Below are positions 1-12,612 of a stretch of 12,612 nt of DNA, piece by piece (the stretch's first letter is position 1; each line of letters opens with the position of its first letter). The position numbers were made by a program, and so were the translations under genes. The stretch is from an uncultured Eubacteriales bacterium (GTDB lineage: Bacteria; Bacillota; Clostridia; Oscillospirales; Oscillospiraceae). The notes under the pieces were generated by a model. That model saw only the letters and a program-made list of their open reading frames with translations, was not told the DNA's origin and did no database searches. Location of the stretch: the NCBI GenBank assembly GCA_900543085.1, contig UQQF01000056.1:1-12612 (forward strand), read 5' to 3'.

Positions 1-871
1 TCGGGTCGTGACCCAGCTCCTGAAGCAGCTGGCGGGAGACGCGGATGACCTTGTTTATCGTCTCGACCATGTGCACGGGGATGCGTATGGTCCTGGCCTG
101 GTCGGCGATGGCGCGGGTTATGGCCTGGCGTATCCACCACGTGGCGTAGGTGGAGAACTTGTAGCCCTTCGTGTAGTCGAACTTGTCCACGGCCTTGATG
201 AGGCCGAGGTTGCCCTCCTGGATGAGGTCGAGGAACAGCATTCCGCGCCCCACATAGCGCTTGGCTATGGAGACGACCAGACGCAGGTTTGCCTCGGCCA
301 TGCGGCGCTTGGCCTCCTCGTCGCCGTCAGCCATGCGGCGGGCGAGATCCTGCTCCTCCTCGGGTGTCAGCAGCGGCACCTTGCCTATCTCCTTGAGGTA
401 CATGCGCACGGGGTCGTCGGTGGAGAAGGTGTCGGCCAGCGCGTCGGTGTCGGCGGCTATCTCCTCCTCGGTGACCTCCTCGATCTCCTGCAGCTCCTCC
501 AGCGCGGGCAGGGCGTCGTCGTCCAGCGGCGGCAGTATGTCCTCGCCGGCGGTGTCTATGCCCAAGTCCTCCAGCTTGTCGTAGAACTTGTCCAGCTCGT
601 CCGGCTCAAGCTTGAGGTCGTCGAGCGTGTCCATCAGCTCCTTGCTGGTGAGCTTTCCGGCCTTCTTGCCCTTTTCAATCAGGGCGTTGAGCTTCTCCGC
701 CTTGTATTTTGCCAGCTCCTCAGGGTCTTCCGGCAGGACATCGGCGGCCTTTTCGGCCTTATCGGCCTTGTCGGACTTGTCCGCGGCCTTTCTCCTTGCG
801 CGCGGCTTCTCGCCGGCAGCAGCGAGCTTCACGTCCTTAATCTCTTTGTCTTTTTCCTTCGTCTCAGGCAT
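1..871 (-). CDS. rpoD: RNA polymerase primary sigma factor RpoD/SigA (3' end cut by window)
   Basis: This is the housekeeping sigma-70 factor, which directs RNA polymerase to TTGACA/TATAAT promoters. 290 residues are visible. A Lys/Asp/Ala-rich N-terminus (about residues 25-45) precedes a region 1.1-like segment (about 55-105) and an acidic linker. Region 1.2 follows ([17 protein letters not shown], about 152-168), then regions 2.1-2.4 ([71 protein letters not shown]) and the start of region 3. Region 4, which reads the -35 element, lies beyond base 1. The ATG at 871 has GGAGG seven bases upstream, inside the end of dnaG, and only three bases separate the two genes, so they are very likely co-transcribed and translationally coupled. 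Identification is secure. Confidence 0.97.
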
Positions 872-874
872 TGC

Positions 875-2614
875 TCATCCTCCGTAACCCTTGGTTTGTT
901 TCATCTTCTCGGCCACCGCGCGCAGGTCGTTCACGTCCGGCGGGTGGCTCTCGGACTCGATTTTGTGTATGTAATCCGCCAGGGCTTTTGCGCCGTTGGC
1001 GGCAGACACCGGTTCTTGAATTATCCTGGTGTACAGCCCGACCTCGTCGGGCGTGAGCGCGGCGCCGAGCGAGGCGGCGCTGGTCTCCAGTCCCTGACGG
1101 GACAAGTCGCGCATGGCCTCGTATATGTGTCTCAGCTCCGGCGAGGAGAAGTCGGCTCCGTCCAGGCCTATGTCGCCCCGGAAAAGCTCCGGGCTCTGGT
1201 TTAAAAGCCGTATCACGCCCATCTCGGCCTTGGCCGAGGCGGGGTTTTCAAACTTTATCGCCACGCCCACCGGCTGGCTCTGGCGCAGCGGGCGGGTGTC
1301 CTCCCGCTCGCGCTGGCGGTCGTTGAGCCGCTGACGGCGGCGGCGCACCTGCCTGACCGCGTCGAGCACCGCGTCGGCCGACACCGAGCACTGCGCGGCC
1401 ACGCGCATGGCGTACACCTCGCGCGAGACGCTGTCGGGCAGCGTGGCTATGACGGACGCCGCCTCCTTGAGGTAGCCCACCTTGCCGTCGTCGCTCTCGA
1501 GGTCGAAGCCCTCGGCGGCGCGCTGCAAGCGGAACTCCATGCCGTTTTCGCTGTCCTCTATCAGCGCGCGGAAGGCCTCCGCGCCCTTGGCCTTGATGAA
1601 CTCGTCCGGATCCTTGCCCTCCGGCACCGTCACCACGCGCACGGCCAGCTCCAGCTTCTCGAGTATCGGTATCGCCCTCTGCGCGGCCTTGCGCCCGGCC
1701 GAGTCGGCGTCGTAGCAGATGATGACGTTCTTTGTATATCGCGAGAGCAGCCGCGCCTGCTCGCCGGTCAGCGAGGTGCCCAGTGAGGCCACCGCGCTGT
1801 CGAACCCGGCCTGGTGCAGGGAAACCACGTCGACGTTGCCCTCAACGAGAATAATGTACCCGGATTTGGACTTCTTAGCCAGATTCAGTCCGAAAAGATT
1901 GTGACTTTTGCTAAAAACAAGCGTATCGGGGCTGTTCAAATACTTTGGCTCGCCGTCGCCCAGGATACGCCCGGAAAAGGCCACCACGTTCCCGCGCACG
2001 TCTATGACCGGGAACATCAGCCGGTTGCGGAAAACGTCGTACACGCCGCTGCGCTTGCCGCTTTTCACCAGTCCGGCATCCAGCAGCTCCCGCTCGGTAT
2101 AGCCGCGGCGCTTCATCTCGTGCGTCAGGCTGTCCCAGGAGTCGGGCGCAAAGCCCAGGCCGAAGTTCCTGGCCACGCGCGGCGAGATGCGCCGCCGCTG
2201 CATATAGTCCAGCGCGGCCTGACCCTCGGGCGCGGAGAGCTGCTCGTAGAAGAACCTGGCCGCCTCGCGGTTGAGCTTCAGCATCCGCTCGCGCTTGCCG
2301 CGGTTGGGGTCGTAGTTGTCCTCCGGCATGGCCATCCCGGCGCGCTTGGCCAGGAATTCCACCGCGTCGGGAAAGCTCAGCCGCTCTATGTCCATTATGA
2401 AGTTTATGACGCTGCCGCCCTTGCCGCAGCCGAAGCAGTGGTAGATCTGCTTGCTGGGCGAGACGGAAAAGCTGGGCGTCTTTTCGCTGTGAAACGGGCA
2501 CAGTCCGAACAGGTTCTGCCCCGAGCGCTTGGTCAGCGCCACGTATTCGCCGACGACCTCCTCTATCGGGTTGCGCTCGGCCAGCTCCTGCAAAAACTCG
2601 GCGGAAAACGCCAC
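875..2614 (-). CDS. dnaG: DNA primase DnaG
   Basis: This enzyme makes the RNA primers for chromosome replication and works with the replicative helicase. It has 579 residues, a normal length. The CHC2 zinc-binding domain is complete: C39-P-F-H42 and C60-F-G-C63. The RNA polymerase core follows. The TOPRIM fold carries the metal-binding acids E258 (ILVEGNVDVVSLHQAGF) and D302/D304 (YDADSAGRKAA), then KDPDEF near 334-339. The residues from about 430 onward are a weakly conserved helicase-interaction region. The family's usual EGYMDV motif reads EGNVDV here, with the catalytic Glu kept. Translation starts at GTG (2614-2612), with GGAGGT six bases upstream. It sits 18 bases after the dGTPase-like gene and 3 bases before rpoD, the macromolecular-synthesis arrangement common in Clostridia. 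Confidence 0.97.
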   Translation of the reverse strand: MAFSAEFLQELAERNPIEEVVGEYVALTKRSGQNLFGLCPFHSEKTPSFSVSPSKQIYHCFGCGKGGSVINFIMDIERLSFPDAVEFLAKRAGMAMPEDNYDPNRGKRERMLKLNREAARFFYEQLSAPEGQAALDYMQRRRISPRVARNFGLGFAPDSWDSLTHEMKRRGYTERELLDAGLVKSGKRSGVYDVFRNRLMFPVIDVRGNVVAFSGRILGDGEPKYLNSPDTLVFSKSHNLFGLNLAKKSKSGYIILVEGNVDVVSLHQAGFDSAVASLGTSLTGEQARLLSRYTKNVIICYDADSAGRKAAQRAIPILEKLELAVRVVTVPEGKDPDEFIKAKGAEAFRALIEDSENGMEFRLQRAAEGFDLESDDGKVGYLKEAASVIATLPDSVSREVYAMRVAAQCSVSADAVLDAVRQVRRRRQRLNDRQREREDTRPLRQSQPVGVAIKFENPASAKAEMGVIRLLNQSPELFRGDIGLDGADFSSPELRHIYEAMRDLSRQGLETSAASLGAALTPDEVGLYTRIIQEPVSAANGAKALADYIHKIESESHPPDVNDLRAVAEKMKQTKGYGG

Positions 2615-2632
2615 GCTGTCACCTCCAATGCG

Positions 2633-3640
2633 CTATCTCACCTGCCAGGAGCGCGGCACAAACAGGTCGTTGTACACGTCGATGACGTACTTGTCCGTCA
2701 TTCCGGACACGTAGTCGGTCACCGCGCGCTCCAGTCCGTCGGTCTCCGCTATGCGGCGGTAGTCCTCCGGCAGGTTCTCGGGGTGGTTGACATAATATCT
2801 CCAGATGTTGAGCAGTATGTCTCCGACCTTGCTCTCCTCGCCCTTGGCGACGGGGTTTTTGTAGACCTCGGCGTACATGAAGTCGGTGAACACCTGCACG
2901 GCCTCGGCCATGTCCGGGCTCATGAGTATGACGTCCTGCTCCCAGCTGGTGCGTATGACGTCGCTGACGATGGCGTTGATGCGCTGGCTGTTGCGGGTGC
3001 CTATGCGCTCGCGCACGATGGCCGGCTCGTCGCCCGGGGAGAGTATCCCGGCGCGCTCGGCGTCGTCGAGGTCGTGGTTTATGTACGCTATCCGGTCGGA
3101 TATGCGCACAACGTCGGCCTCCAGGCTGCCGCGCGGGGTGCCGGTGGTGTGGTTGAGGATGCCTATGCGCGTCTCGTAGCAGAGGTTTAGCCCTTGGCCG
3201 TCCTTTTCCAGCCTGTCCACCACGCGCAGGCTCTGCTCGTAGTGGCGGAAGCCGCCGGGGAAGATGTCGTTCAGCGCCCGCTCGCCGGCGTGGCCGAAGG
3301 GGGTGTGACCCAGGTCGTGCCCCAGGGCGATGGCCTCGGTCAAGTCCTCGTTGAGACGCAGCGCGCGGGATATCGTCCTCGCCACCCGAGCCACCTCCAG
3401 CGTGTGGGTGAGCCTGGTGCGGTAGTGGTCGCCCTCCGGCTGCAAAAACACCTGAGTCTTGTGTTTCAGGCGGCGGAAGGCCTTGCAGTGGGTTATGCGG
3501 TCCACGTCGCGCTGGAAGCAGGTGCGTATCTCGCACTCGCTCTCCGGCCGCTCGCGTCCGCGGGTGTCGACCGCGCGCACGCCGCGCTCGCAGACGAGCG
3601 CCAGCTCGTCCCTCTCTCTGTCCTCGCGTGGGCAGGCCAT
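2633..3640 (-). CDS. HD-domain deoxyguanosinetriphosphate triphosphohydrolase-like protein
   Basis: The family hydrolyses dNTPs (classically dGTP) to deoxynucleoside and triphosphate, tuning nucleotide pools. Its exact substrate cannot be read from sequence. It has 335 residues from the chosen ATG. HD-phosphohydrolase residues are visible: H79 (RLTHTLEVARVA), H108-D109 (ALGHDLGHTPFGH) and D182 (RISDRIAYINHDLDD). The N-terminal segment HCKAFRRLKHKTQVF is typical of the dGTPase family. The reading frame is open to a GTG at 3646, but that GTG is the last three bases of the AAGGAGGTG ribosome site, so the ATG at 3640, seven bases after GGAGG, is the real start. It is the first gene of the dgt-like/dnaG/rpoD block. 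The 70-base gap upstream holds a TATTAA -10-like element but no convincing -35, so it may be read from the yigZ promoter. Confidence 0.93.
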   Translation of the reverse strand: MACPREDRERDELALVCERGVRAVDTRGRERPESECEIRTCFQRDVDRITHCKAFRRLKHKTQVFLQPEGDHYRTRLTHTLEVARVARTISRALRLNEDLTEAIALGHDLGHTPFGHAGERALNDIFPGGFRHYEQSLRVVDRLEKDGQGLNLCYETRIGILNHTTGTPRGSLEADVVRISDRIAYINHDLDDAERAGILSPGDEPAIVRERIGTRNSQRINAIVSDVIRTSWEQDVILMSPDMAEAVQVFTDFMYAEVYKNPVAKGEESKVGDILLNIWRYYVNHPENLPEDYRRIAETDGLERAVTDYVSGMTDKYVIDVYNDLFVPRSWQVR

Positions 3641-3710
3641 ATCCACACCTCCTTGTGTCTATTTAATACGCCGTGCGGGCGCAAAAGTCCTTGCCGGATC
3701 TGAAAAATTT

Positions 3711-4232
3711 TTAGAGTTTGTACTCGAACATGCGAAACTCCGTCCAGCCGGTGTCCTCGTAGTACATGGTCTTGGCCTCGACGAAGTAAAAGCCCATCGC
3801 GAGGTAGAGCTTTTCGGCAGGCTCGTTGCCGCCCAGGACGTCCAGGCGGACGCACTCGGCGCCCTTTTCCCGCGCCGTGGTCAGGCACTCGGCCACCACG
3901 CGCTTGGCCACTCCCCTGCCCTGCATGGCCGGAGCCACGCCCAGCGCGTGCAGCATGAACACCCGCTCCGGCGGGGCATCAACTCTCCAGGGCAAGCCCT
4001 CATAGCCGGGGTTGTACTCGTTATTTATGATGACCGCCGCGGCGATAGCGCCCTCGTCCTCCAGGACGTACAGCTCCCCGGCGTCCAGGCTTTTTCTCAG
4101 CTCGGCGTCGGAGGGGTATATGCCCTTGCGCCAGCCGGGGTCGAACTCGCCGCCCTCCATGAGGTCTATCAGCGCCCAGTAGAAGCCGCGTACGCGGTCA
4201 AACTCCGCACTCACCGCACGTCTGAACTCCAT
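3711..4232 (-). CDS. GNAT-family N-acetyltransferase
   Basis: This is a predicted acetyl-CoA-dependent acetyltransferase of unknown substrate (173 residues). The acetyl-CoA-binding motif A is clear: LHALGVAPAMQGRGVAKRVV (about 95-113), containing the Q-G-R-G-V-A loop. It is followed by VRLDVLGGNEPAEKLYLAMGF (about 128-148), the usual motif B strand and helix with N and Y/L contacts to CoA. The N-terminal half (FYWALIDLMEGGEFDPGW) is the variable acceptor side. The frame extends to a GTG at 4238 that overlaps the yigZ-family stop, but GGAGG would be only one base from it. GGAGG is seven bases from the ATG at 4232, so I use that start. It is separated from the yigZ-family stop by two bases and is surely in the same transcript. 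Confidence 0.88.
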   Translation of the reverse strand: MEFRRAVSAEFDRVRGFYWALIDLMEGGEFDPGWRKGIYPSDAELRKSLDAGELYVLEDEGAIAAAVIINNEYNPGYEGLPWRVDAPPERVFMLHALGVAPAMQGRGVAKRVVAECLTTAREKGAECVRLDVLGGNEPAEKLYLAMGFYFVEAKTMYYEDTGWTEFRMFEYKL

Positions 4233-4234
4233 GC

Positions 4235-4864
4235 TCACTCCTCCAGTCTCTGCGGACGGAACACGCTGCCCAGCACGCTCATGCGCGCGCCGCCGGCGGT
4301 CATGTCCGTGATGCGGCCGCCTATCTGCTCCGGCACGCCGGCGGGCAGCAGGCAGGTGACGGTCACGAACTCGGCAAAGTCCCCGGCCATGTCCTGCGCG
4401 CCCTCGCCCTCCAGCAGGCGGCGCAGCCGCTCATAGTGCGCGTAGCTGCACTCCACGGCCACGCTCTGCCACTCGGCCATGCGCGCCCTGCCGGCGGCCT
4501 CCAGCGCCATGCTCGCCGCCTTGGAATAGGCCCGCACCAGGCCGCCGGAGCCGAGCAGGATGCCGCCGAAATAGCGCGTGACCACGCACACGACATCGCA
4601 GACGTTGGCGCTCCTGAACACGTTCAGCGTGGGCTGACCAGAGGTGCCGCCCGGCTCGCCGTCGTCCGACCAGCGCATCTGCCCGTCGGAGAGGACGTAC
4701 GCCCAGACGTTGTGGGTAGCGTCGGCGTGCTTCCTGCGCACGGACTCGACAAAGGCCATGGCCTCCGACACGCTCTCGGCGTGCTGCACCTGGCCGATAA
4801 AGCGCGACTTCTTGTCAATGTATTCGGCCTCGCCGTACCCGGCGGGGATTATATACTCGGACAT
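4235..4864 (-). CDS. yigZ: YigZ/IMPACT family protein (UPF0029)
   Basis: This is a small cytosolic protein of the YigZ/YvyE/IMPACT family. Family members are linked to translation or stress control, but the bacterial role is not well defined. The signature is unmistakable: KKSRFIG (about 18-24), H-N-V-W-A-Y-V-L (51-58), RWSDDGEPGGTSGQP (64-78) and VVTRYFGGILLGSGGLVRAYSKA (94-116). The C-terminal half corresponds to the ferredoxin-like DUF1949 domain. It has 209 residues, the normal size. An upstream ATG at 4882 would add six residues, but the promoter -10 lies at 4897-4902, which leaves almost no leader. The ATG at 4864 has GAGGTGG just upstream, so it is preferred. It is the first gene of the leftward block and nearly touches the GNAT gene. 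Confidence 0.93.
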   Translation of the reverse strand: MSEYIIPAGYGEAEYIDKKSRFIGQVQHAESVSEAMAFVESVRRKHADATHNVWAYVLSDGQMRWSDDGEPGGTSGQPTLNVFRSANVCDVVCVVTRYFGGILLGSGGLVRAYSKAASMALEAAGRARMAEWQSVAVECSYAHYERLRRLLEGEGAQDMAGDFAEFVTVTCLLPAGVPEQIGGRITDMTAGGARMSVLGSVFRPQRLEE

Positions 4865-4896
4865 ATGCCACCTCTCAGACATATTTCTTCAATTTT

Positions 4897-4925
4897 ATTA
4901 TATCAGCATATGTCAATAGCGGCAA
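4897..4925 (-). promoter_or_regulatory. Sigma-A promoter of the yigZ-dgt-dnaG-rpoD block
   Basis: Reading the minus strand, the -35 is TTGCCG (4925-4920), the spacer is 17 bp and the -10 is TATAAT (4902-4897). TGA sits just before the hexamer, making an extended -10. A start near 4890 gives a leader of about 26 bases to the ATG at 4864. It lies just downstream of the terminator that ends the sigma-factor unit, where a new promoter would be expected. Confidence 0.75.
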
Positions 4926-4931
4926 GCGCGC

Positions 4932-4966
4932 AAAAAAGCCGTGGGACGCTGTAAGCGCCCCACGGC
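4932..4966 (-). terminator. Intrinsic terminator of the ECF sigma / membrane protein unit
   Basis: On the minus strand a 12-bp stem (arms 4966-4955 and 4949-4938, one G-T pair, loop TTACA) is followed directly by six T residues (4937-4932). The stem starts four bases after the stop codon of the last gene of the unit. The plus strand has no T tract, so it works leftward only. Confidence 0.93.
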
Positions 4967-4970
4967 GGGG

Positions 4971-6479
4971 TCAATATTGTATTTCCCCTCCCGGCTCGTT
5001 ATCCGGGTGAAACTGAAGCGCTGTCTGCACGGTCAGGAACGCTCCGGCCTTGTTCCAGCTGTTGCGCATCCGCATCTGCATCGCGGTATAAACCGGGAAC
5101 TGCAGCGGCGTCTGCTGATGGGTGTAGTTCACCCAGCTGTCGAATATCCAGCCCTTCTCCTGCATCACGACCGGGTAGGCCACGTAACCCCTGACGTTCT
5201 CGGCGTGCAGCGGGGCCGAGTACGCGGCGAAGAGGTCGTTGTTGTAGCTCTGACCGAAGAACACGCTGTTGGAGGTGTAGTCCTCCCTGCCGAGGAAGTA
5301 GAAATCCGATACTAGGCTCTCGCCGCCGCTCCCGTACATGACGCGCCCGGACGGCTCTCCCCCGCTGTACCAGCCCTCGGGCATCATTCTGTCGGGGGTC
5401 CAGAGCTGTATGGACTCGGTGCCGTAAAAATTCACCGGCTCCGTCCACCGGAAGTGGTGGAACACCATCCAGCGCCCCTCTGGCAGCTCTACGGCTACGC
5501 CGGTTGTGCGCAGCTCCTTTACGGGGTATTCGGTGCTTATGTGCGTGTGGGCTACGCCGTCGCCGTCCACATACGTCTCGCGCACCTCCTCGCCGTCGTT
5601 CACGGGGTAGTCCTCCGTGTAGTACACAACCCGGAGCGCCCCGGCGCACTTGGCCACGTCCTCGTCCGAGAGGTCGGCGAGCACGTCCTCCGGGAAGCCG
5701 AGCGCGGCAAGCTCCGCGCGTGTCTGCGCCTCCCCGGCGGGCTGCAGCGGCTGCCAGTCCATCGGATACCGGGCAAGGAACAGGTACCCGCACAGCATGA
5801 GCGCGAGCGTTATGCCTGTCAGCGCGATGGTCATGGCTCGGTTGGATACGCGGCCCGGCGCGGCGGTGACGGCGTAACCGGCCTCGTCCAGCTCCGAGTA
5901 GAGCTTATAGAGGCTGCGGATTATGAGCACGAAGGCGGCTATGAACAGTATCCCGCCCAAAAGCCCCAGCACCGCCCCGTAAAGGCCCAGCACCAGCACA
6001 ATCGAGTACCACACCAAAAGCCAGATGGCCCCGGCGGCGTGTTTTTTAACCCCGGCCTTGGCCTGCACGCCGCGTATCGCGCCGAAGAGCAGCAGCGGCG
6101 TTATAAGTTGCGCTGCGACGGACCCGTAGGTCAGCGAGGAGCTTACTCTCTCCACGGCGGGCGCGGAGCTGTATATTGTGCACAGCGATACGAGCGTGAA
6201 AACCCATATAGCCGCCCGGAGCGCCGAGACGGCGTACAGCCAGGCAAAGCAGCGGTTCTCCCGACGCAGCGTGCGGAAGCCGCAGAGCATAAGCATGGCT
6301 CCCACGGCGGGCAGGATGTAGTTCAGCGCCAGGAAATTCAGCGTGACCGCGCAAAGCCCTATGCCCCACAGCACCTGCGCCATCGCCTTCCGCCACGGGG
6401 TTATGCCTCCGGCTGCGTCGTCCGGCGGCGTTTCCGGCAGGGCGCTTTCTATGAGCGCGTCCAGACGCTCGTCATTCAT
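4971..6479 (-). CDS. Multi-pass membrane protein, paralogue B, putative partner of the ECF sigma factor
   Basis: I do not recognise a named family. It has 502 residues. The N-terminus is cytosolic and helical (LDALIESALPETPPDD, about 6-21). Six or seven hydrophobic segments follow (about 36-68, 78-103, 117-137, 150-189 and 214-236), then about 265 residues probably outside the membrane, rich in Tyr, Trp and Gly. It is a clear paralogue of the gene at 7014-8474. Shared blocks include ALPExPPD, TPWR+AM, RTLRREN, YAVTAAxGR, SNRA, YPMDWQP and LGFPExVLADL. Its ATG at 6479 overlaps the sigma gene's end by eight bases, with GGAGG eight bases upstream, so expression is coupled. The open frame upstream to 6743 only shadows the sigma gene. 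An anti-sigma or sensor role is inference. No HxxxCxxC zinc anti-sigma motif is visible. Confidence 0.85.
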   Translation of the reverse strand: MNDERLDALIESALPETPPDDAAGGITPWRKAMAQVLWGIGLCAVTLNFLALNYILPAVGAMLMLCGFRTLRRENRCFAWLYAVSALRAAIWVFTLVSLCTIYSSAPAVERVSSSLTYGSVAAQLITPLLLFGAIRGVQAKAGVKKHAAGAIWLLVWYSIVLVLGLYGAVLGLLGGILFIAAFVLIIRSLYKLYSELDEAGYAVTAAPGRVSNRAMTIALTGITLALMLCGYLFLARYPMDWQPLQPAGEAQTRAELAALGFPEDVLADLSDEDVAKCAGALRVVYYTEDYPVNDGEEVRETYVDGDGVAHTHISTEYPVKELRTTGVAVELPEGRWMVFHHFRWTEPVNFYGTESIQLWTPDRMMPEGWYSGGEPSGRVMYGSGGESLVSDFYFLGREDYTSNSVFFGQSYNNDLFAAYSAPLHAENVRGYVAYPVVMQEKGWIFDSWVNYTHQQTPLQFPVYTAMQMRMRNSWNKAGAFLTVQTALQFHPDNEPGGEIQY

Positions 6480-7014
6480 CGCTCTCACCTCCCAGCGCGG
6501 CGCGGAGCTTTTTGCGCAGGCGGTGCAGCCGCCCCTCGACGCCGCGCTCGGTCGCGCCCAGCTCTGCGGCAATCTGGGCGGTGGACTGCATATAGTAGTA
6601 TTTGCGGTAGAAAAGGTTCCGCTCCGCCGGTTTGAGGGCGGCGAGCGCAGTTTGCAGCGCCTCGCGCCGCTCTTTGAGCAGCAGCGCCTCCTCCGGCGTC
6701 GGCTCGCTCGACGGCGTGTCCCCGGCCTCGTCGAGCGGGGCATGGTCGGCGCGATGTGCGCGGGCTCGGTTCAGCGCGGCGTTCCTCGCGATGGCCGTCA
6801 GCCAGGCCGTCCAGCTGCCGCGCTCGGGGTCGTACCTGTCTATGCGCTCCCAGACGCGCATGGCGCACTCGCTCAGGCACTCCTCCCGGTCCGACTCGTT
6901 GGACAGGATGGGCGCGATGACATAGCGCAGCAGCGGCCCGAAGTGCGTCAAAAGCTGCGCTACTCCGCCCTCGTCGCGCGACTTTATGAGTTCAATTACC
7001 TCTTTCTCGTGCAT
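6472..7014 (-). CDS. ECF-type (sigma-70 family) RNA polymerase sigma factor
   Basis: This is an alternative sigma factor of 180 residues. Region 2 spans about 22-85: LLTHFGPLLRYVIAPIL, then DREECLSECAMRVWERIDRYD and GSWTAWLTAIARNAALNRAR, the normal ECF region 2.1-2.4 pattern. A short acidic linker (about 90-110) leads to region 4 (about 122-175), with LKPAERNLFYRKYYYMQSTAQIAAELGATERGVEGRL split by me into its two helices before the basic LHRLRKKLRAAL end. There is no region 1.1 or 3. The ATG at 7014 shares its A with the TGA stop of the upstream membrane gene, and a GAGGGGGTG ribosome site precedes it. The open frame extending to 7173 is a shadow of that gene. It overlaps the downstream membrane gene by eight bases. 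Its regulon is unknown. Confidence 0.92.
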   Translation of the reverse strand: MHEKEVIELIKSRDEGGVAQLLTHFGPLLRYVIAPILSNESDREECLSECAMRVWERIDRYDPERGSWTAWLTAIARNAALNRARAHRADHAPLDEAGDTPSSEPTPEEALLLKERREALQTALAALKPAERNLFYRKYYYMQSTAQIAAELGATERGVEGRLHRLRKKLRAALGGESDE

Positions 7015-8474
7015 CAGCCCACCCCCTCTGTCTGAATCGGCCCATCTTCCGGTATCATAAGGTTCGGGAACACCCCTCCGTGAGCCAGAACCTCCAGCCT
7101 TCCTATCGTGACCGGCGACGCCGGCTCGTCCACCGGTAAGGCCGGGTACACGAACCAGCTGTTCGCCCTCCAATAGTGCGGCTGGGCGGAGATATCCACC
7201 GGGTCTTCCTCCACGTCGCGCATGGTGTAGACCAGGTAGCCCCTCTGCCGCTCGCCGGAATTCGGGAAGGAGAAGCTGCCGCTCAGGCTGTATTCGCTCC
7301 CGCTGCCGAAGAGCATCGTATCCACCTGCCGAGTGCCCAGGCCGAAGTCGTGGTACGGCGCGGCATAGCTCACGCCGCCGCGGTCATACAGCACGCGCCC
7401 CGACACCGGCTCCCCCGCCCAAAACTCGTCGCCGATGTAGCCGCTCCCCAGCTGCGCGCGGAAAAGCTCCGCGCCGTGGAAGCCAGGGTTTTCCACCCAC
7501 TCAAAGTGGCAGACGACGCGCCACTCGTGCCCCGGCATACGCACAAACACCGTGGTAAAGCGCGTCCTGCCGTCAAACACGTCCGATTGCAGCTGCGAAA
7601 AGCTCGTGTCCGTGTCCTCGTCCACCAGCACGTACCGTGCGCCGGACATGGAGCGCACCTCCTCGTCCGTCAAGTCGGCGAGAACGCCCTCAGGGAAGCC
7701 GAGTTCGGATAGCTCCGCGCGCAGTTCAGGCTCGCCGCCGCTCTCCCGGGGCTGCCAGTCCATCGGGTACTTGTCCAGAAAGCACAGCCCCAGCGCGATG
7801 CCGGCCAGCTCCACGCCAACTATGACGGCGGCGAGCGCCCGGTTGGATATCCTGCCCCCCGCGGCGGTCACGGCGTAGAGCGCGGCTTCCACGCTCTTGG
7901 CCGTGCGCCAGAGGCAGACGATAATAATTATGTAAACTATCAGTATCGCGTAAAGCACCGGGCTGTTGTCCGGTATGTCCAGCACTCCGAACACCAACGG
8001 CACCGCGTACCAGAACACCAGCATCGCGGCAGAAGTGGCGCTTGGACTCAATCCAGCCTTGGATTTCAGGCTTTTCAGCGCGAAATACAGCATCAGGAGC
8101 ATTGCGAATTTCAAGAACGCCTGCACTATGCTTATCGCGGCTTCAAGCTCCGGCCGGAGGCTGAAGGCCACGCTTGAGAGCGCCGTTAGGTATATTATGT
8201 AAACCACATTCTGCGCGAGCGCGCAGATGTACGCCGCGCGAAAGCCGCCGTTCTCCCTGCGCAGAGTGCGCAGGCCGCACAGCGTCAGCAGCATACCGGC
8301 GGTCGGAAGCACATAGGCCAGTATCCCGCGCGTGAAGGTTATTGTCGTCAGCGCCAGACCCCAGAGCAGCTGCGTCATCGCCCTTCGCCACGGCGTGACC
8401 TCCCGCGCCACGTTGTCCGGCGGCGCCTCCGGCAGCGCGCTGTCTATCAGCTCGTCGAGCTTTTTGTCCTCCAT
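7014..8474 (-). CDS. Multi-pass membrane protein, paralogue A, putative partner of the ECF sigma factor
   Basis: I do not recognise a named family. It has 486 residues and the same architecture as the gene at 4971-6479. A cytosolic N-terminus (LDELIDSALPEAPPDN, 6-21) is followed by hydrophobic segments near 37-68, 80-105, 113-133, 148-164, 173-189 and 212-233. A C-terminal domain of about 250 residues begins at YPMDWQP and LRAELSELGFPEGVLADLTD. The frame is open to a GTG at 8510, but the ATG at 8474 follows a GGGGTGAGGGA ribosome site and aligns with the paralogue's first residue. Its stop overlaps the sigma start by one base. Upstream (8475-8533) there is a TATTAT at 8507-8502 but no TTGACA-like -35, which leaves room for control by the unit's own sigma factor (inference). 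Confidence 0.85.
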   Translation of the reverse strand: MEDKKLDELIDSALPEAPPDNVAREVTPWRRAMTQLLWGLALTTITFTRGILAYVLPTAGMLLTLCGLRTLRRENGGFRAAYICALAQNVVYIIYLTALSSVAFSLRPELEAAISIVQAFLKFAMLLMLYFALKSLKSKAGLSPSATSAAMLVFWYAVPLVFGVLDIPDNSPVLYAILIVYIIIIVCLWRTAKSVEAALYAVTAAGGRISNRALAAVIVGVELAGIALGLCFLDKYPMDWQPRESGGEPELRAELSELGFPEGVLADLTDEEVRSMSGARYVLVDEDTDTSFSQLQSDVFDGRTRFTTVFVRMPGHEWRVVCHFEWVENPGFHGAELFRAQLGSGYIGDEFWAGEPVSGRVLYDRGGVSYAAPYHDFGLGTRQVDTMLFGSGSEYSLSGSFSFPNSGERQRGYLVYTMRDVEEDPVDISAQPHYWRANSWFVYPALPVDEPASPVTIGRLEVLAHGGVFPNLMIPEDGPIQTEGVG

Positions 8475-8533
8475 TCCCTCACCCCCCGGCGTCTTTACTC
8501 TATAATACACCCTTTTCGGGAAAATCCCACGGT

Positions 8534-8569
8534 AAAAAGTAAAAAACGGTCAAGCGCGGCGCGCTTGAC
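8534..8569 (-). terminator. Intrinsic terminator for a minus-strand small transcript
   Basis: A perfect inverted repeat with 10-base arms (8549-8558 and 8560-8569) is followed on the minus strand by CG, six T, AC and five T (8546-8534). This is a strong leftward terminator. No annotated-size gene lies upstream of it on that strand, so it implies a short transcript from the 8570-8870 region. The right arm also contains most of the plus-strand -35 hexamer (8565-8570). Confidence 0.85.
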
Positions 8570-8593
8570 ACTAAAGGGAAAGTTGGTTATAAT
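8565..8593 (+). promoter_or_regulatory. Full-consensus sigma-A promoter (antisense RNA)
   Basis: TTGACA (8565-8570), exactly 17 bp, then TATAAT (8588-8593): a perfect match to the sigma-A consensus, and the best promoter in the window. Transcription would start near 8600. No coding start with a ribosome site follows closely, and the first strong structure downstream is the hairpin at 8666-8701. It most likely makes a short non-coding RNA, with possible read-through into the GntR operon. Confidence 0.85.
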
Positions 8594-8599
8594 ATATGC

Positions 8600-8705
8600 G
8601 GAAAGAGGCGCTGCGACAAGCGGTTTGACTCTTCAAGTTAACAGGTATGGACTAAGCTTAACTTAGCAAGAACCGTCACTTGGCAGAGTGGCGGTTCTTG
8701 CGTTT
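8600..8705 (+). ncRNA. Candidate antisense small RNA to the 26-codon ORF
   Basis: The predicted transcript is about 105 nt, from the consensus promoter to the hairpin at 8666-8701 and its short T run. No useful ORF lies inside: the ATG at 8596 is at or before the start site, and the ATG at 8647 reads only two codons. It can form AAGTTAA/TTAACTT pairing (8635-8641 with 8658-8664) or the competing CTAAG/CTTAG hairpin (8652-8656 with 8662-8666). It is complementary to the last eight codons and stop of the small minus-strand ORF and to its 3' untranslated part. That geometry matches antitoxin RNAs of type I systems such as txpA/ratA. Existence and role are inference from promoter plus terminator. 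It could instead be the start of a long leader for the GntR operon. Confidence 0.45.
8666..8701 (+). terminator. 15-bp hairpin, putative terminator of the antisense RNA
   Basis: Arms 8666-8680 and 8687-8701 pair over 15 bases with one G-T pair and loop TGGCAG. The 3' side ends TTCTTGCGTTT, a modest T-rich tract. On the minus strand the same hairpin covers the last codons and stop of the 26-codon ORF, so it may also stabilise that mRNA or slow ribosomes at its end. Confidence 0.55.
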
Positions 8706-8756
8706 CCAGACTTTTATGGTGACAGTGTATTCACCGATGTGAAAAGTCAAGGTCAC
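8676..8756 (-). CDS. Predicted 26-residue basic peptide
   Basis: This small ORF starts with GTG at 8756-8754 and stops with TGA at 8678-8676. The ribosome site AAAGGTGGTGA (8772-8762) differs from the ideal anti-16S complement at one base and leaves about eight bases to the start. The peptide begins (M)TLTFHIGEYTVTIKV, where polar and hydrophobic residues alternate as in an amphipathic beta strand. It ends WKRKNRHSAK, strongly basic, and there is no transmembrane helix. A promoter (8838-8866) and a terminator (8534-8569) bracket it, giving an mRNA of about 300 nt. An antisense RNA opposes its 3' end. I do not recognise the family with certainty. A type I toxin, a nucleic-acid-binding peptide or a regulatory leader peptide are all possible. 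Being coding is supported by signals in the right places, not by homology. Confidence 0.55.
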   Translation of the reverse strand: MTLTFHIGEYTVTIKVWKRKNRHSAK

Positions 8757-8816
8757 GCGCCTCACCACCTTTCGGAGGTTCTGGCCAAACCGCCTGCCGA
8801 ATGTGCAGCGCCTCTC

Positions 8817-8833
8817 CCGCCACTATGTGGCGG
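8817..8833 (-). other. 5'-end stem-loop of the small mRNA
   Basis: CCGCCAC and GTGGCGG form a perfect 7-bp stem with a 3-base loop. The predicted start of the small minus-strand transcript (about 8831) falls at its upstream edge, so the hairpin would sit at or very near the 5' end and could protect the mRNA. The rest of the leader (8816-8757) can also pair ACC with GGT across the ribosome site at 8762-8772. Confidence 0.5.
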
Positions 8834-8837
8834 CAAT

Positions 8838-8866
8838 ATCCTATCACATGACCCATATGCCGTCAA
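8838..8866 (-). promoter_or_regulatory. Promoter of the 26-codon ORF
   Basis: Reading the minus strand, the -35 is TTGACG (8866-8861), the spacer is 17 bp and the -10 is TAGGAT (8843-8838). TGA directly upstream of the hexamer gives an extended -10. The predicted start near 8831 gives a leader of about 75 bases before the GTG at 8756. Confidence 0.65.
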
Positions 8867-8913
8867 TGCTCGCACCTTAACAGGGGCGGGCAAAAATTTT
8901 TTCGCGCGGCCTA

Positions 8914-8942
8914 TTGACAAATGCGCATCACCGTGGTATGTT
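8914..8942 (+). promoter_or_regulatory. Promoter of the GntR/ABC operon
   Basis: TTGACA (8914-8919), 17 bp, TATGTT (8937-8942). An A/T tract (CAAAAATTTTTT, 8891-8902) lies just upstream where an UP element would sit. The start near 8949 gives a leader of about 50 bases to the GntR ATG. The palindromes described next overlap the -10 and the start site, so it is probably repressed by the operon's first gene product. Confidence 0.8.
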
Positions 8943-8953
8943 AGTGCCACGGT
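8930..8953 (+). promoter_or_regulatory. Inverted repeat around the -10: candidate operator 1
   Basis: ACCGTGG (8930-8936) and CCACGGT (8947-8953) are perfect 7-base arms separated by 10 bases that contain the -10 hexamer. A dimeric repressor bound here would block RNA polymerase. Assignment to the GntR protein is inference from position. Confidence 0.55.
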
Positions 8954-8974
8954 TAATTACTCAAGTAACTAACC
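8951..8974 (+). promoter_or_regulatory. 24-bp imperfect palindrome: candidate operator 2 (GntR/YtrA type)
   Basis: The arms GGTTAATTACT and AGTAACTAACC are separated by CA and match at 10 of 11 positions. A third pair, TGTTAGT (8939-8945) and ACTAACA (8976-8982), lies outside it. The palindrome spans the predicted start of transcription in front of the GntR gene, the classic place for autorepression in this family. It overlaps the first inverted repeat by three bases. Confidence 0.6.
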
Positions 8975-8998
8975 GACTAACAAACAGGAGGTGAGCAC

Positions 8999-9376
8999 AT
9001 GGCGGGCTTTGACGGGACACGTCCCATTTTCCTTCAGCTTGCGGAGATGCTGGAGGAGGGGATAATCTCCGGCGCCTACCCCGAGGAGGGGCAGATACCC
9101 TCCATCACGGAGTTCTCCGCGACGCTGAAAATCAATCCGGCCACGGCGCTCAAGGGCATCAATCTCCTGGTGGACGAGGGTCTGGTGTACAAGAAGCGGG
9201 GCGTCGGCATGTTCGTGGCCACGGGCGCGCGCGATGCGCTGCTGAAAAAGCGGCAGGAGAGCTTCTACACCGACCGGGTGCGACCCGTTGCAAGGGAGGC
9301 TTCGTCCCTGGGATTGACGCTCCCGGAGCTCACAAGGCTCGTAGAGCGAGCCTACAATGACGAGGAAAAGGAGTAA
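8999..9376 (+). CDS. GntR-family (YtrA subfamily) transcriptional regulator
   Basis: A DNA-binding repressor of 125 residues. The winged helix-turn-helix fills about 9-75: PIFLQLAEMLEEGIISGAY, GQIPSITEFSATLKINPATA and LVDEGLVYKKRGVGMFV. Only about 50 residues follow, with no large effector domain, which is the hallmark of the short YtrA subfamily. These usually control a neighbouring ABC transporter. The ATG at 8999 has AGGAGG seven bases upstream. It is first in the operon, five bases before the ATPase gene, and the palindromes at 8930-8982 are its likely targets. The inducer is unknown; in the family, cell-wall-active compounds are common inducers, but nothing here proves that. Confidence 0.93.
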   Translation: MAGFDGTRPIFLQLAEMLEEGIISGAYPEEGQIPSITEFSATLKINPATALKGINLLVDEGLVYKKRGVGMFVATGARDALLKKRQESFYTDRVRPVAREASSLGLTLPELTRLVERAYNDEEKE

Positions 9377-9381
9377 CTACC

Positions 9382-10242
9382 ATGGCTATAGAATTGAGAG
9401 GCGTCACCAAGCGCTACGGCGCGACCACGGCGCTGGACAATGTGTCGGTCAAGTTCGGCGGCGGCATCGTTTACGGCCTGCTGGGCGCAAACGGCGCGGG
9501 CAAGACCACGATGATGAACCTGATCACCAACCGCATCTGGGCCGACGAGGGCGAGATACTGATAGACGGCGAGAGCGCGCCGGGCAACGACCGCGCGCTG
9601 GGCAAGGTGTATATGATGGCGGAGGCCAACCTCTTTCCCGACAGCATGAAGGTGGACGGGGCGCTCAAGCTCACGCGCAGCTTCTACCCCACCTTCGACA
9701 TGGACTACGCCATGAGCGTGGCGGAGAAGTTCGCGCTGCCCACCAAGAAGAAGGTCAAGGCGCTCTCCACCGGCTACGCGAGCATCTTCCGGCTGACGCT
9801 GGCGCTGGCTGTGAACTGCCCCTACGTGATTTTTGACGAGCCGGTGCTCGGCCTGGATGCGCAGCACCGTGACCTGTTCTATCGCCTGCTGATGGAAAAG
9901 TGTGCCGAGTGCGAGCAGACCGTCATACTCTCCACCCACCTCATTCAGGAGGCGGCGAAGCTGATAAACCACGCCGTAATAATCAAGAACGGAAAGATAC
10001 TGCGCGACTCGGACGCCGAGGAGCTCTCCGGCGCGGCCTATCAGGTCAGCGGCCCGGCCGCCGCCGTGGACAGCTATCTGCGCGGGCGTCACGTGCTGAG
10101 CGTGAACAGCCTCGGCGGGCTCAAGACCGCCTGCGTCGAGGGCGTCCCCGACGAGCGCGGCAGCGAGGGGCTGGAGTTCTCCAACATGGATCTACAGGAC
10201 TACTTCATCGGGCTTATGAACGAACAGGAGGGTGTAAAATGA
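9382..10242 (+). CDS. ABC transporter ATP-binding protein
   Basis: A cytosolic ATPase of 286 residues that would power the adjacent permease. Walker A is G35-ANGAGKT (35-42). The signature loop is LSTGY (128-132) in place of LSGGQ. Walker B is YVIFDEP (D152, E153), the D-loop is LGLD and the H-loop is H186 in ILSTHLI. At the Q-loop the sequence YMMAEANLFPDSM (about 77-89) carries no Gln where one is usual. The C-terminal 80 residues after about 205 are a family-variable extension. The ATG at 9382 has AAGGAG eight bases upstream. Its stop overlaps the permease start (ATGA), so the two are coupled. The substrate is unknown. With a YtrA-type regulator, export or resistance is more likely than uptake, and no binding protein is present. 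Confidence 0.94.
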   Translation: MAIELRGVTKRYGATTALDNVSVKFGGGIVYGLLGANGAGKTTMMNLITNRIWADEGEILIDGESAPGNDRALGKVYMMAEANLFPDSMKVDGALKLTRSFYPTFDMDYAMSVAEKFALPTKKKVKALSTGYASIFRLTLALAVNCPYVIFDEPVLGLDAQHRDLFYRLLMEKCAECEQTVILSTHLIQEAAKLINHAVIIKNGKILRDSDAEELSGAAYQVSGPAAAVDSYLRGRHVLSVNSLGGLKTACVEGVPDERGSEGLEFSNMDLQDYFIGLMNEQEGVK

Positions 10243-10997
10243 GGTTTCTGCCGTCTTTCAAATATAGATTCAGGGATTGCATGTTCAGCATGGGTGTTGT
10301 CATCCTGGTGATGATAGTGCTCACCGCACTGTGCTACCTCGGCATCGTCACCTTCGGCTCAATAACGAGGACGGACAACAGCGGCGAGGTCATAATGGAG
10401 ACGACCACGATGAATTTCAGTATGCCTGTCGCCATCTTCATGTTCGTGCTGTCCATCGTGTCCATACGCGAGGACATGCGCCTGGGTATCCAGAACGGCG
10501 CCGGACGCGGCACGGTGTTCCTGGCGAACACGGCCTGTATGCTCGTGACGGCGCTGATTCTAAACATCGCCTTCTTTGTCGTGACCGCCGTGTGGAACCA
10601 GTTCGACACCGGTGTGTACATCGTGGACTTCTTCGGCGCGCTGTACAACAATGAGCCGTTCTTTGAGAGCCTCGACGATTTGGCGATAAGCAGCGCGGTG
10701 CTGCTCGCGCTGAGCGTATTCCTCTCGGCGCTGGGCACCTTCACCTCGCTCATGTACTGGCGGCTGAACAAGCTCGGCAAGTGGATAGTCTCCATCGGCA
10801 TGGGCGCGGCGGTAATACTCTTTATCGACGTGATAATTCGCTACGCGGTTATAGCGAAGGCGCTGGGTTGCTTCCTTGACTGGCTGATACTGACGCCGTG
10901 GAACACGGCGCTGTGCCTGGTGGTGCTGGCCGTTGTGTTCTACGCTTTCGCCCGGCTGCTTGTCCGCCGCAACTCGATAACCGCGGCGACGGCGTGA
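10239..10997 (+). CDS. ABC transporter permease (six-helix membrane subunit)
   Basis: The membrane partner of the ATPase, 252 residues. Six hydrophobic segments are visible at about 17-40, 59-76, 93-120, 147-172, 181-202 and 214-243. An external loop with TRTDNSGEVIMETTT lies between the first two, and cytosolic REDMRLGIQNGAGR between the second and third, which could contact the ATPase. The frame is open far upstream (to 9900), but that part shadows the ATPase gene. The ATG at 10239 overlaps the ATPase stop by four bases, with GGAGG seven bases upstream. It is last in the operon. It is not recognised beyond the general ABC-2-like architecture, and the substrate is unknown. Confidence 0.88.
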   Translation: MRFLPSFKYRFRDCMFSMGVVILVMIVLTALCYLGIVTFGSITRTDNSGEVIMETTTMNFSMPVAIFMFVLSIVSIREDMRLGIQNGAGRGTVFLANTACMLVTALILNIAFFVVTAVWNQFDTGVYIVDFFGALYNNEPFFESLDDLAISSAVLLALSVFLSALGTFTSLMYWRLNKLGKWIVSIGMGAAVILFIDVIIRYAVIAKALGCFLDWLILTPWNTALCLVVLAVVFYAFARLLVRRNSITAATA

Positions 10998-11022
10998 GTT
11001 TAGCGCCCCGGTCTGAACAAAG

Positions 11023-11054
11023 CATCCCCCTCCGCCGCTCGGCGGAGGGGGATG
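11023..11054. terminator. Terminator hairpin between convergent operons
   Basis: Perfect 14-bp arms (11023-11036 and 11041-11054) with loop GCTC. It lies 25 bases after the permease stop and 7 bases after the stop of the minus-strand lipoprotein gene. T runs are weak on both sides (ATTCTATT on plus, CTTTGTT on minus), so its strength rests on the very stable GC stem. It probably serves both directions. Confidence 0.75.
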
Positions 11055-11061
11055 AATTCTA

Positions 11062-12258
11062 TTATGCGCTCGGCGACGGCTCCGGCGTCGGGGTCGCGGT
11101 GGGCTCCGGCGTGGCCGCCGGCTCGTCCGAGGGCTGGGTACCGCCCTCTATCAGCGCGCCGTAATACAGGCTGCCCGAGCACTCGGGATAGTACTGGTTG
11201 TCCCACCAGTAGCTGCCCCACATGAGCGTGTCGTTCACGAGGAAGGTGCTGCCGTAGCCCAGCTCCGACGTGCGCGAGGCGTCCACGTGGTAGTTTGCGC
11301 CGTCGATCGTGATGATGTTCCAGTAGTGCTCCGCGCGGTCGAGCCTGCCCTCCACGACTATGCACTCCACTCCCGCGGCGTCGCACAGCACCTTGTAGGC
11401 CAGCGCCATGCCCTCGCTGTCGGACTCGCCCGACAGCAGCGCCGCCCAGAGCGTCGGCGGGGCGTCCTCCGAGTGCGTGCACTCGCTTATAAGTATGTTC
11501 AGGCATTGCAGCGCCTTGTATGCGTCGGACTCGCTGGTGACGGCGCTCATCATGCGCTCCACCGAGTTTTCCAGCACGCCCTTGCGCGAGGCCAGCACGC
11601 TGGGCGTCGCGCCGTATTCGAAGTATATCTCGACTATGCGCTGGAAGCCGTTGCCCGTGTACACGTTCACCACGGCGTCAGGCCGCTCCACGCAGGCGAG
11701 CGGGTCTGAGAAATACGCCTCGTCCACGTAGTTCAGGACTGCGTTCTCGTCCAGGCTGGACGCGCCGACCATGGCCACAAGCGACTCTTCCATGTTGGCC
11801 AGCGACTCGCAGATGGCGTTGTAAAGCCCGCTCTCCGTATTGACGCTGACGATGGACTCCAGCTCCTCCGCGGTGCGCTTGTAGTAGACGAAGACTTCGG
11901 CCTCGTAGTAGGCGACTATGCGGTCGAGGTCATAGCTTATGTAGTCCACCGCGTAAGCGCCCAGGGCGGTGCCGGTGCTCACCTCCCGGCAGGCTGCGGC
12001 GAGGTCTTCGCCTATGTCGCCGTCGTAGGTGCCCGTAAAGCGCAGGAGCACGCTGTCGCCGTGCTCCGACACCAGGTTGTTTATTGCCAGAGTCAGCTGC
12101 ATGTAGCTGGATATTTCGGTCGCACCGTCGTACTGCGTATCCTCCGCCGGCGGGTCATATTCAGCGCTCGAAAAGTACTCCTTGTCAAACACGGAGGCGC
12201 AGCCGGTGAGCGACAGCGCCGTCATCAGAGCAAGTATGAGCGCCGCCGCTTTTTTCAC
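11062..12258 (-). CDS. Lipoprotein with degenerate transglutaminase-like domain
   Basis: An exported, probably membrane-anchored protein of 398 residues. The N-terminus is a lipoprotein signal: KK, a hydrophobic stretch, then LTGC with C20 as the lipidated Cys. Residues about 280-330 resemble the transglutaminase-like core: SEGMALAYKVLCDAAGVEC, then E-H-Y-W-N (H311) and NYHVDAS (D326). The His and Asp of the triad are present, but the usual Cys before GxA is S281, so classic Cys chemistry looks lost. About 240 N-terminal residues are not recognised. The tail is Pro/Thr/Glu-rich (ATPEPTATPTPEPSPS), like a wall-spanning linker. GTG at 12258 is chosen because GGAGG is eight bases upstream and it starts the signal peptide. 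A TTG at 12288 would add ten residues. It lies 19 bases after the LUD gene. Confidence 0.8.
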   Translation of the reverse strand: MKKAAALILALMTALSLTGCASVFDKEYFSSAEYDPPAEDTQYDGATEISSYMQLTLAINNLVSEHGDSVLLRFTGTYDGDIGEDLAAACREVSTGTALGAYAVDYISYDLDRIVAYYEAEVFVYYKRTAEELESIVSVNTESGLYNAICESLANMEESLVAMVGASSLDENAVLNYVDEAYFSDPLACVERPDAVVNVYTGNGFQRIVEIYFEYGATPSVLASRKGVLENSVERMMSAVTSESDAYKALQCLNILISECTHSEDAPPTLWAALLSGESDSEGMALAYKVLCDAAGVECIVVEGRLDRAEHYWNIITIDGANYHVDASRTSELGYGSTFLVNDTLMWGSYWWDNQYYPECSGSLYYGALIEGGTQPSDEPAATPEPTATPTPEPSPSA

Positions 12259-12277
12259 CGTAAACGCCTCCGTTCCG

Positions 12278-12612
12278 TCACATGCCAAGCTCCTCGTCCA
12301 CGAGGATAAGCTCGCATTTTTCCATGCCCATCATCTTGTACATCAGTATCGTCATGGCGCGGCAGACGCGCTCCGGGCTGCGGCAGTCCCAGCATTTGAG
12401 CTCGCCGGTGGCGCAGGGGGTCTTTTTGCCCATGCTCCTGGCTCTCAGCGGTCCGGCCACGTTCCGGGCGCGGTAGATGGCCGCGTCGAGGTCGGGACAC
12501 ACCTTGTTCACGCCGGCGACTATGTACACGCTCTTGTGGCCGAACATCGTGCCGGCCAGGCGGTTGCCCATGCCGTCGATGTTGACTATCTCGCCCGTCT
12601 CGGCGATGGCGT
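12278..12612 (-). CDS. LUD-domain protein (LutC/YkgG-like, DUF162), 5' end cut by window
   Basis: The C-terminal 110 residues are visible. The sequence enters in frame as AIAETGEIVNIDGMGNR, then FGHKSVYIVAGVNKVCPDLDAA. A Cys-rich segment follows, TPCATGELKCWDCRSPERVC, with four Cys spaced as in a metal or cluster site, before the end LILVDEELGM. This matches what I know of the conserved end of stand-alone LUD proteins, whose relatives include lactate-utilisation proteins. The exact role of this subfamily is uncertain. The ATG at 12571 is internal: coding continues without a break to the edge. It stops 19 bases before the lipoprotein gene and may be co-transcribed with it. Confidence 0.85.
   Translation of the reverse strand, partial: AIAETGEIVNIDGMGNRLAGTMFGHKSVYIVAGVNKVCPDLDAAIYRARNVAGPLRARSMGKKTPCATGELKCWDCRSPERVCRAMTILMYKMMGMEKCELILVDEELGM

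Follow-up and report, generated by a model that had tools for sequence, protein, structure and literature searches.

The window analysed here is a stretch of 12,612 nucleotides from an uncultured Eubacteriales bacterium (contig UQQF01000056.1, positions 1 to 12,612), and between 8543 and 8866 it carries a compact module in which a short minus-strand gene is faced by a plus-strand antisense gene (Table 1). A predicted protein without a Pfam match lies on one side of the module, and a GntR-ABC operon on the other. The anatomy first described for this module in an earlier note was confirmed: the promoter, 5' hairpin, ribosome site, GTG-initiated ORF of 26 codons and terminator of the minus strand were all located, and the plus-strand promoter that faces the ORF has the full consensus. 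Two elements absent from that description, the inverted repeat 8604-8627/8786-8815 and the hairpin 8666-8701, were also found. The GTG start of the window copy aligns with the ATG of most relatives in the family alignment, and the stem of the mRNA terminator shares 5 bases with the -35 of the antisense promoter. The scan of 901 bases showed four promoter-like sites, vs 0.6 ± 0.8 in shuffled sequences: two of them belong to the module, one lies ahead of the GntR gene, and the fourth, at 8619 on the minus strand, is weak. Two terminator-like sites were found in the same bases with 1.0 expected, and such sites are in general not rarer in shuffles. The antisense terminator was not called by the pattern scan of the window, and the T tract there is poor (GCGTTTCC).

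Table 1. Features of the module in the window, with positions counted from the first letter of the stretch.
Feature	Position	Strand	Sequence or basis
mRNA promoter, extended -10	8838-8866	minus	TTGACG-17-TAGGAT with TG before the -10; 9/12 consensus, pattern scan
Hairpin at presumed mRNA 5' end	8818-8832	minus	CGCCACATAGTGGCG (CGCCAC ATA GTGGCG)
5' arm of mRNA end-to-end pairing	8786-8815	minus	AGAGGCGCTGC..CGGCAGGCGGTTTG; inverted repeat and fold, conserved in the family
Ribosome site	8760-8773	minus	GAAAGGTGGTGAGG, ending 3 bases before GTG
ORF, 26 codons	GTG 8756 to TGA 8676	minus	peptide VTLTFHIGEYTVTIKVWKRKNRHSAK
Hairpin over last ORF codons and stop, presumed antisense RNA 3' end (terminator)	8666-8701		
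3' arm of mRNA end-to-end pairing (on the plus strand, antisense RNA 5' domain)	8604-8627	minus	
Antisense RNA, about 90-100 nt, predicted start and end	8600-8705	plus	
Antisense promoter, pointing back at the ORF	8565-8593	plus	TTGACA-17-TATAAT, 12/12
mRNA intrinsic terminator	8543-8569	minus	stem GTCAAGCGCG/CGCGCTTGAC, then CGTTTTTTAC, at 8569-8549

Relatives were sought by DNA and RNA-model routes, and the results showed that the window module is one copy of a multicopy family with 99 nonredundant beta-type loci and 86 distinct peptides. The beta and transmembrane class labels were pruned by eye, which removed 8 beta-labelled and 6 transmembrane-labelled distinct peptides, and 292 candidate ORFs of the class "other" were excluded as chance ORFs. 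In Vescimonas fastidiosa (Oscillospiraceae), blastn matched the 861-kb replicon at five places, and a second search of this replicon gave ten, some of them fragments. The best match directly follows jag, and the plasmid gene table, which is incomplete, lists no gene over it, so ORFs of this kind are easy to miss. In Vescimonas (L001 3000-3360, L003/L004), one mRNA unit is followed by a second antisense-like unit, and two whole modules lie side by side. Pattern scans of viral contigs gave five true sense loci in six stretches (L013 and L017 are the same sequence) and, for the antisense gene, further loci among 26 stretches; blastn and tblastn against phage records found no match. The scan of genome contigs added loci mostly from Oscillospiraceae-type genomes, and its matches, at least 120 and mostly due to chance in GC-rich genomes, were sorted by a second criterion and by eye to pick the true ones.

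Two covariance models were used, R1 for the antisense RNA (25 sequences) and R2 for the mRNA up to the hairpin (24 sequences). The window, itself a training sequence of both, scored 1.4e-30 with R2 and 1.7e-22 with R1. The large model searches score the best few candidates per genome, so that the genome counts, including that for the class, are lower bounds: R2 matched at least 34 of 394 genomes in one order (E <= 1e-5), at least 48 of 200 in one family (E <= 1e-6), and at least 2 of 391 in the class, namely the centre genome and a fragment. Thirty of the 34 matches in the order were read, of which 23 were of beta type and 7 encoded a hydrophobic peptide; all 33 read in the family were of beta type, 22 of them from L350-L371. 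The R1 result for the class (18/391) was rejected as a measure of prevalence because true members were mixed with plain terminators. Among 40 chosen genomes, the highest counts in a single genome were 11 for antisense and 9 for sense matches. In Rfam (4227 families), none reached the gathering threshold for the window and none was found at E <= 10 for 8480-8920; L010 gave ten weak matches, all below gathering. The closest sequence relative of the window, L113 163-500 (the same as L169 and L276), has apparent repeated hairpin units downstream, and two minus-strand loci (L149 at about 5998 and L111 at about 4647) have extra hairpin-rich sequence in the 5' UTR, past the 5' arm and ahead of the ribosome site.

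Comparison of the ORFs indicated that the beta-type peptide is under purifying selection. In the core of the 25-residue class (38 distinct ORFs), pN was 0.089 and pS 0.558, a pN/pS of 0.16, and the variation at codon positions 1, 2 and 3 was 0.09, 0.035 and 0.33; in the 27-residue class (27 distinct ORFs), the core pN/pS was 0.35. The other sense frames gave ratios of 1.48 and 4.01 in the 25-residue class and 0.91 and 2.22 in the 27-residue class. The antisense frames gave 1.31, 0.27 and 6.07, and 0.82, 0.42 and 1.87, respectively; the frame with the low value shares the variable third positions. Synonymous sites were less free in the last eight codons (pS 0.22 and 0.24), as expected beneath the antisense hairpin. 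Some members, such as L206 (MPITLTFHLFGFTFTIRVKK) and L210, stop before the hairpin, so the peptide tail can be dispensed with.

From the letters of the window, the peptide had been described as beta-patterned and basic rather than a membrane helix, and as foreign to the usual toxin families, and the analysis agrees with both statements. The window peptide and three beta-type relatives matched no Pfam family at E <= 1, PF16935 included, and the peptide had no match in NCBIfam. No transmembrane helix was recognised in the window peptide, whose highest 15-residue mean hydropathy is 0.6, and the mean net charge is +5.1 in the beta-type family vs +1.8 in the hydrophobic peptides described below. 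For the 34-residue relative L209 (45 sequences), AlphaFold predicted a two-strand beta-hairpin with strands 2-9 and 12-19, a model that is of this longer relative and not of the window peptide; the block pLDDT values were 90, 90, 65 and 64 (about 90 over the first 20 residues), and pTM was 0.33. The alternation of hydrophobic and polar residues would render such a hairpin amphipathic. The transmembrane-type peptide of L236, folded alone, gave a helix at 2-27. The peptides of the G128 loci L284, L288, L304, L325 and L329, such as MKITLVIEFLEYVLRIAFRKK, look intermediate between the beta and helix types, and most of them were counted in the beta set.

Because of the inverted repeat, the two ends of the mRNA can pair, and the fold of 8545-8832 is far stronger than that of shuffled sequences (-121.9 kcal/mol vs -83.9 ± 4.5, z -8.4); for the antisense RNA of the window, z was -3.9. 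Across the family, cognate arms paired better than the mean of eight non-cognate arms in 90/97 beta-type and 28/33 transmembrane-type loci, and the arms were stronger on the mRNA strand than on the antisense strand in 87/97 and 25/33, respectively, counts that are not independent since the loci are related. In alignment A1, G-U pairs on the mRNA strand join the arms at columns 17-212 in 22 of 24 sequences and at columns 20-209 in all 24. The pairing of 5' and 3' ends is kept on the mRNA strand, as in the folding of aapA and hok mRNAs, over the predicted extent of the mRNA. With a simple pattern, an mRNA terminator past the antisense promoter was recognised in only 20/78 beta-type loci (1.5 expected), so the end pairing of the full-length mRNA is not secured everywhere; the count was 7/26 for transmembrane-type loci. 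A rule that this terminator always straddles the antisense -35 was dropped, since an overlap was found in 13/78 loci and a nearby terminator in 20/78.

The hairpin over the last codons behaves differently from the arms. In 25/25 antisense sequences one of its pairs is U-G, which on the mRNA strand turns into a C-A mismatch; this hairpin therefore seems to be kept for the antisense RNA. Its top pair covaries (U-A in 12/24 loci and C-G in 12/24), and the covariation is mirrored in the tails of the distinct peptides, where S..K occurs 47 times and P..R 24 times, S..R and P..K never, with three other combinations. A loosely defined hairpin around the G-rich arm of the ribosome site was found in 93/99 beta-type loci vs 43.8 expected from shuffles, and in 28/33 transmembrane-type loci vs 15.5 expected; the same routine found none in the window copy. 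A GNRA loop, present in 25/99, was dropped as a rule for this hairpin.

At the sequence level, the antisense gene has its own promoter and overlaps the mRNA, and both its hairpin and its 5' domain are conserved. The antisense promoter had a mean match of 11.5/12 in 96 loci (7.5 in shuffled sequences) and reached at least 10/12 in 94 of them; the mRNA promoter was weaker, with a mean of 9.6/12 in 98 loci. When sampling was by the mRNA model, the antisense promoter was present in 63 of 64 loci. The two exceptions, in which it is not recognisable, are L169, which is the window's closest sequence relative named above, and L343; L342 (the same as L111), outside the promoter set, has lost the antisense gene and the 3' part, and its ORF runs on.

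Antisense genes without a toxin ORF, here called orphans, make up 23 of the 96 antisense-model loci. ORFs without an antisense promoter are rare, 1/64, or 3/66 if L342 and L343 are added, and Fisher's test of the orphan count against these gave 6e-5 and 8e-4, respectively, for sets that were differently sampled and filtered and partly judged by eye, and in which an ORF that lost its hairpin tends to drop from the ORF set. The antisense-model loci were the best 99 of 122, with 23 weaker or partial ones dropped, and 10 of 91 mRNA-model matches, namely those without an antisense partner, were taken in addition; the orphan count excludes L263 (contig edge) and L282 and L290 (N), and includes L285 and L314, where the ORF calls are spurious. 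Orphans arise mostly by replacement of the 5' part of the ORF with unrelated sequence, the antisense gene being kept, and 19/23 retain an antisense promoter of at least 10/12. Eight of them (L247, L248, L259, L281, L294, L302, L317 and L330) still show, by eye, part of the beta ORF in readable form ahead of the hairpin, so these look like remains of whole modules. L010 lacks an ORF, yet the promoter, the conserved 5' domain and a T-rich terminator are all present. Homologous loci with a broken frame in conserved surroundings had been named in the earlier note as an argument against its reading. Such loci do occur, namely the 23 orphans, but what they have lost is mostly the 5' part, with the antisense gene kept, as a toxin-antitoxin reading predicts; that an antitoxin outlives its toxin more often than the reverse is an informal expectation, and the counts agree with it. 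Two loci with beta peptides, L207 and L208, have a strongly altered framework (arms GGCGCAAG.. and GGCGCTCG.., and AGAAAGGAGG in the 3' arm). They were not among the strong matches of the antisense model and are perhaps a diverged antitoxin type.

Both covariance models also found loci that have the arms, ribosome site, hairpin and convergent promoter and whose ORFs encode hydrophobic peptides, 33 of them distinct, for example MELILQIVLLLILLEIIKTIKK (L217), MGIKVVRVLVFAILLLHIFTINAK (L213) and MVTYAELFQFCLVILGVVALVLDATKKK (L337); a further example, MEYVLAFALVVMVIVLIIKK (L222), comes from the class search. We searched 15 genomes for Hol_Tox (PF16935, a putative holin-like toxin), and found matches at a loose E-value in 8 and matches over the cut-off in a single genome, G093, at two places, C21:21143 (24.7 v 23.3 bits) and C23:299. 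The former is L373 (MVTYAGLFQFAMLIIAVIALCLNKRKK) and lies inside the framework with arms, and sub-threshold places in three other genomes (G008, G010 and G344) coincide with framework loci. Control genomes gave matches in 11/14, over the cut-off in 2, so only the matches that exceed the cut-off or lie in the framework carry weight. Nine traced genomes hold both the beta and the hydrophobic kinds. Other Pfam and NCBIfam matches of the hydrophobic peptides were far below the cut-offs and were ignored. A second hydrophobic kind (MENGRWAKALRFAVCFIIILAVMVYISPKAC / MWEHRRKQFLRFLVCLAILAYILSIKAC), found at L204 1805-1897 (plus), L216 2418-2510 (minus), L334 and L162, shares the framework and is unlike the MVTY.. 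Hol_Tox-like kind.

Taken over the family, the comparisons indicate that the module is real, conserved and multicopy. The earlier proposal, either a type I-like module or an antisense-controlled gene for a small protein, is supported as a class of module by the coding selection and by the antisense promoter in nearly all relatives examined. We consider it likely that the module is a type I-like toxin-antitoxin pair with a cationic beta-hairpin peptide of putative toxicity in the toxin slot. This reading draws on sequence comparison, that is, on the conservation of the anatomy, coding selection, end pairing that favours the mRNA strand, the strength of the antisense promoter, the surplus of orphans, and the sharing of the framework with hydrophobic, Hol_Tox-like peptides. 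The minus-strand mRNA, about 290 nt long, would encode a short cationic peptide that may fold as an amphipathic two-strand beta-hairpin and act as a toxin. The full-length mRNA would fold end to end, 5' UTR with 3' UTR, with the ribosome site tending toward a small hairpin, and, by analogy with aapA/IsoA and hok, it might be poorly translated until trimmed or refolded. The strong promoter would yield an antisense RNA, about 90-100 nt long, against the last codons and the 3' part of the mRNA; it could form a duplex with the mRNA and so repress it through decay. Its linker changes fast and is complementary over its full length to the cognate mRNA alone, which may keep the several copies of one genome apart. 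We also propose, tentatively, that one framework may be an exchangeable chassis for unrelated toxic peptides, in which the slot of the Oscillospirales type holds a cationic beta-hairpin of 20-37 residues and the linker allows coexistence; this wider proposal seems quite possible.

The product might instead be a non-toxic small protein, regulatory or membrane-binding, that is limited by a cis-antisense RNA and forms no toxin-antitoxin pair. Coding selection and antisense conservation fit this equally, and so does a peptide without a transmembrane helix; however, the same RNA framework bears Hol_Tox-like peptides, genomes hold several copies of which many have decayed to orphan antisense genes, and ORFs seldom occur without the antisense promoter. 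We regard this alternative as unlikely, and favour the type I reading over it on two grounds: the framework carries holin-like peptides at other loci, with nine genomes holding both kinds, and there are more orphan antisense genes than ORFs that lack an antisense promoter. It is very improbable that the antisense RNA is the real product, as a multicopy family of trans-acting small RNAs to which the peptide is secondary: orphans with a good promoter are common, and L010 has promoter, 5' domain and terminator but no ORF; against this, the peptide is under purifying selection, orphans with a readable ORF piece look like module remains, and the antisense 5' domain and its cognate mRNA change together. 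A MITE-like element, small, mobile and non-autonomous, with the inverted repeats as its ends and the ORF and promoters incidental, would account for the copy number, the repeats, and the absence of the module next to the GntR operon in the nearest operon relative found, but it is very unlikely, since both promoters are conserved although they lie outside the repeats, the arms are kept through G-U pairs on the mRNA strand, and the ORF is under coding selection.

The aapA toxin is a membrane-active helical peptide, and the toxins of txpA/RatA, bsrG/SR4, bsrE/SR5 and yonT/SR6 are hydrophobic membrane peptides. In the passages available from PMC6733600, aapA mRNAs are described with a 5'-3' long-distance interaction and hairpins that mask the SD, the full-length form being translationally inert until 3' trimming, and hok is described as similar in having an inert full-length mRNA. 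According to these passages, aapA/IsoA of Helicobacter resembles the present family in its multiple chromosomal copies, end-paired mRNA, SD-masking hairpins and antisense RNA; it belongs to another phylum, and the two are likened by layout. The B. subtilis antitoxins pair with the 3' ends of the toxin mRNAs in the part of PMC6562991 that was available, and the end-to-end arms and beta-hairpin peptide of the present module do not appear in those passages for txpA/RatA, bsrG/SR4, bsrE/SR5 or yonT/SR6. Hol_Tox is approached by L373, over the cut-off, and by several peptides just under it in the same framework with arms and convergent promoter, whereas the window peptide has no match and no transmembrane helix. 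Membrane-associated type I toxins are described as hydrophobic helices in the introduction of PMC8309996, with RalR and SymE as the cytosolic ones. The latter two are likewise type I toxins other than a membrane helix, but by the same account they promote RNA or DNA cleavage, and the present peptides, with 20-37 residues, would be too small for a domain that cleaves RNA or DNA. The type I pairs of Clostridioides difficile, also Clostridia, share an antisense RNA and small peptides, but their toxins, as described in excerpts of PMC6563280, differ in having 34-59 residues, a transmembrane region and a charged, lysine-rich C terminus; they were set apart by this description. In the open-licence literature, six peptide motifs were found in no text, and among the listed titles and abstract openings on type I toxins with beta structure, holin-like toxins, gut families, T1TAdb and long-distance interactions none described this family.

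If the chassis proposal is true, the beta-hairpin peptide would be a small type I toxin outside both the membrane helices and the nucleases. The occurrence of beta-hairpin and holin-like peptides in one framework would suggest that the RNA antitoxin, and not the toxin, is the evolutionarily stable part. The family would also add a new class of very small cationic peptides, and it makes the role of type I modules in gut anaerobes testable.

As for the surroundings of the module, homology with the nearest operon relative found (76% identity in GntR) ends at 8892, and the module is absent there; in 19 GntR loci, no antisense RNA was found beside the GntR gene at E <= 0.01. On the other side, the predicted protein next to the module adjoins a sigma-70-type sigma factor gene at 6472-7173 (PF04542, PF08281). 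The sigma gene is flanked by two minus-strand proteins (4971-6743 and 7014-8510), whose N-terminal parts (MNDERLDALIESALPETPPDD.. and MEDKKLDELIDSALPEAPPDN..) are alike by eye.
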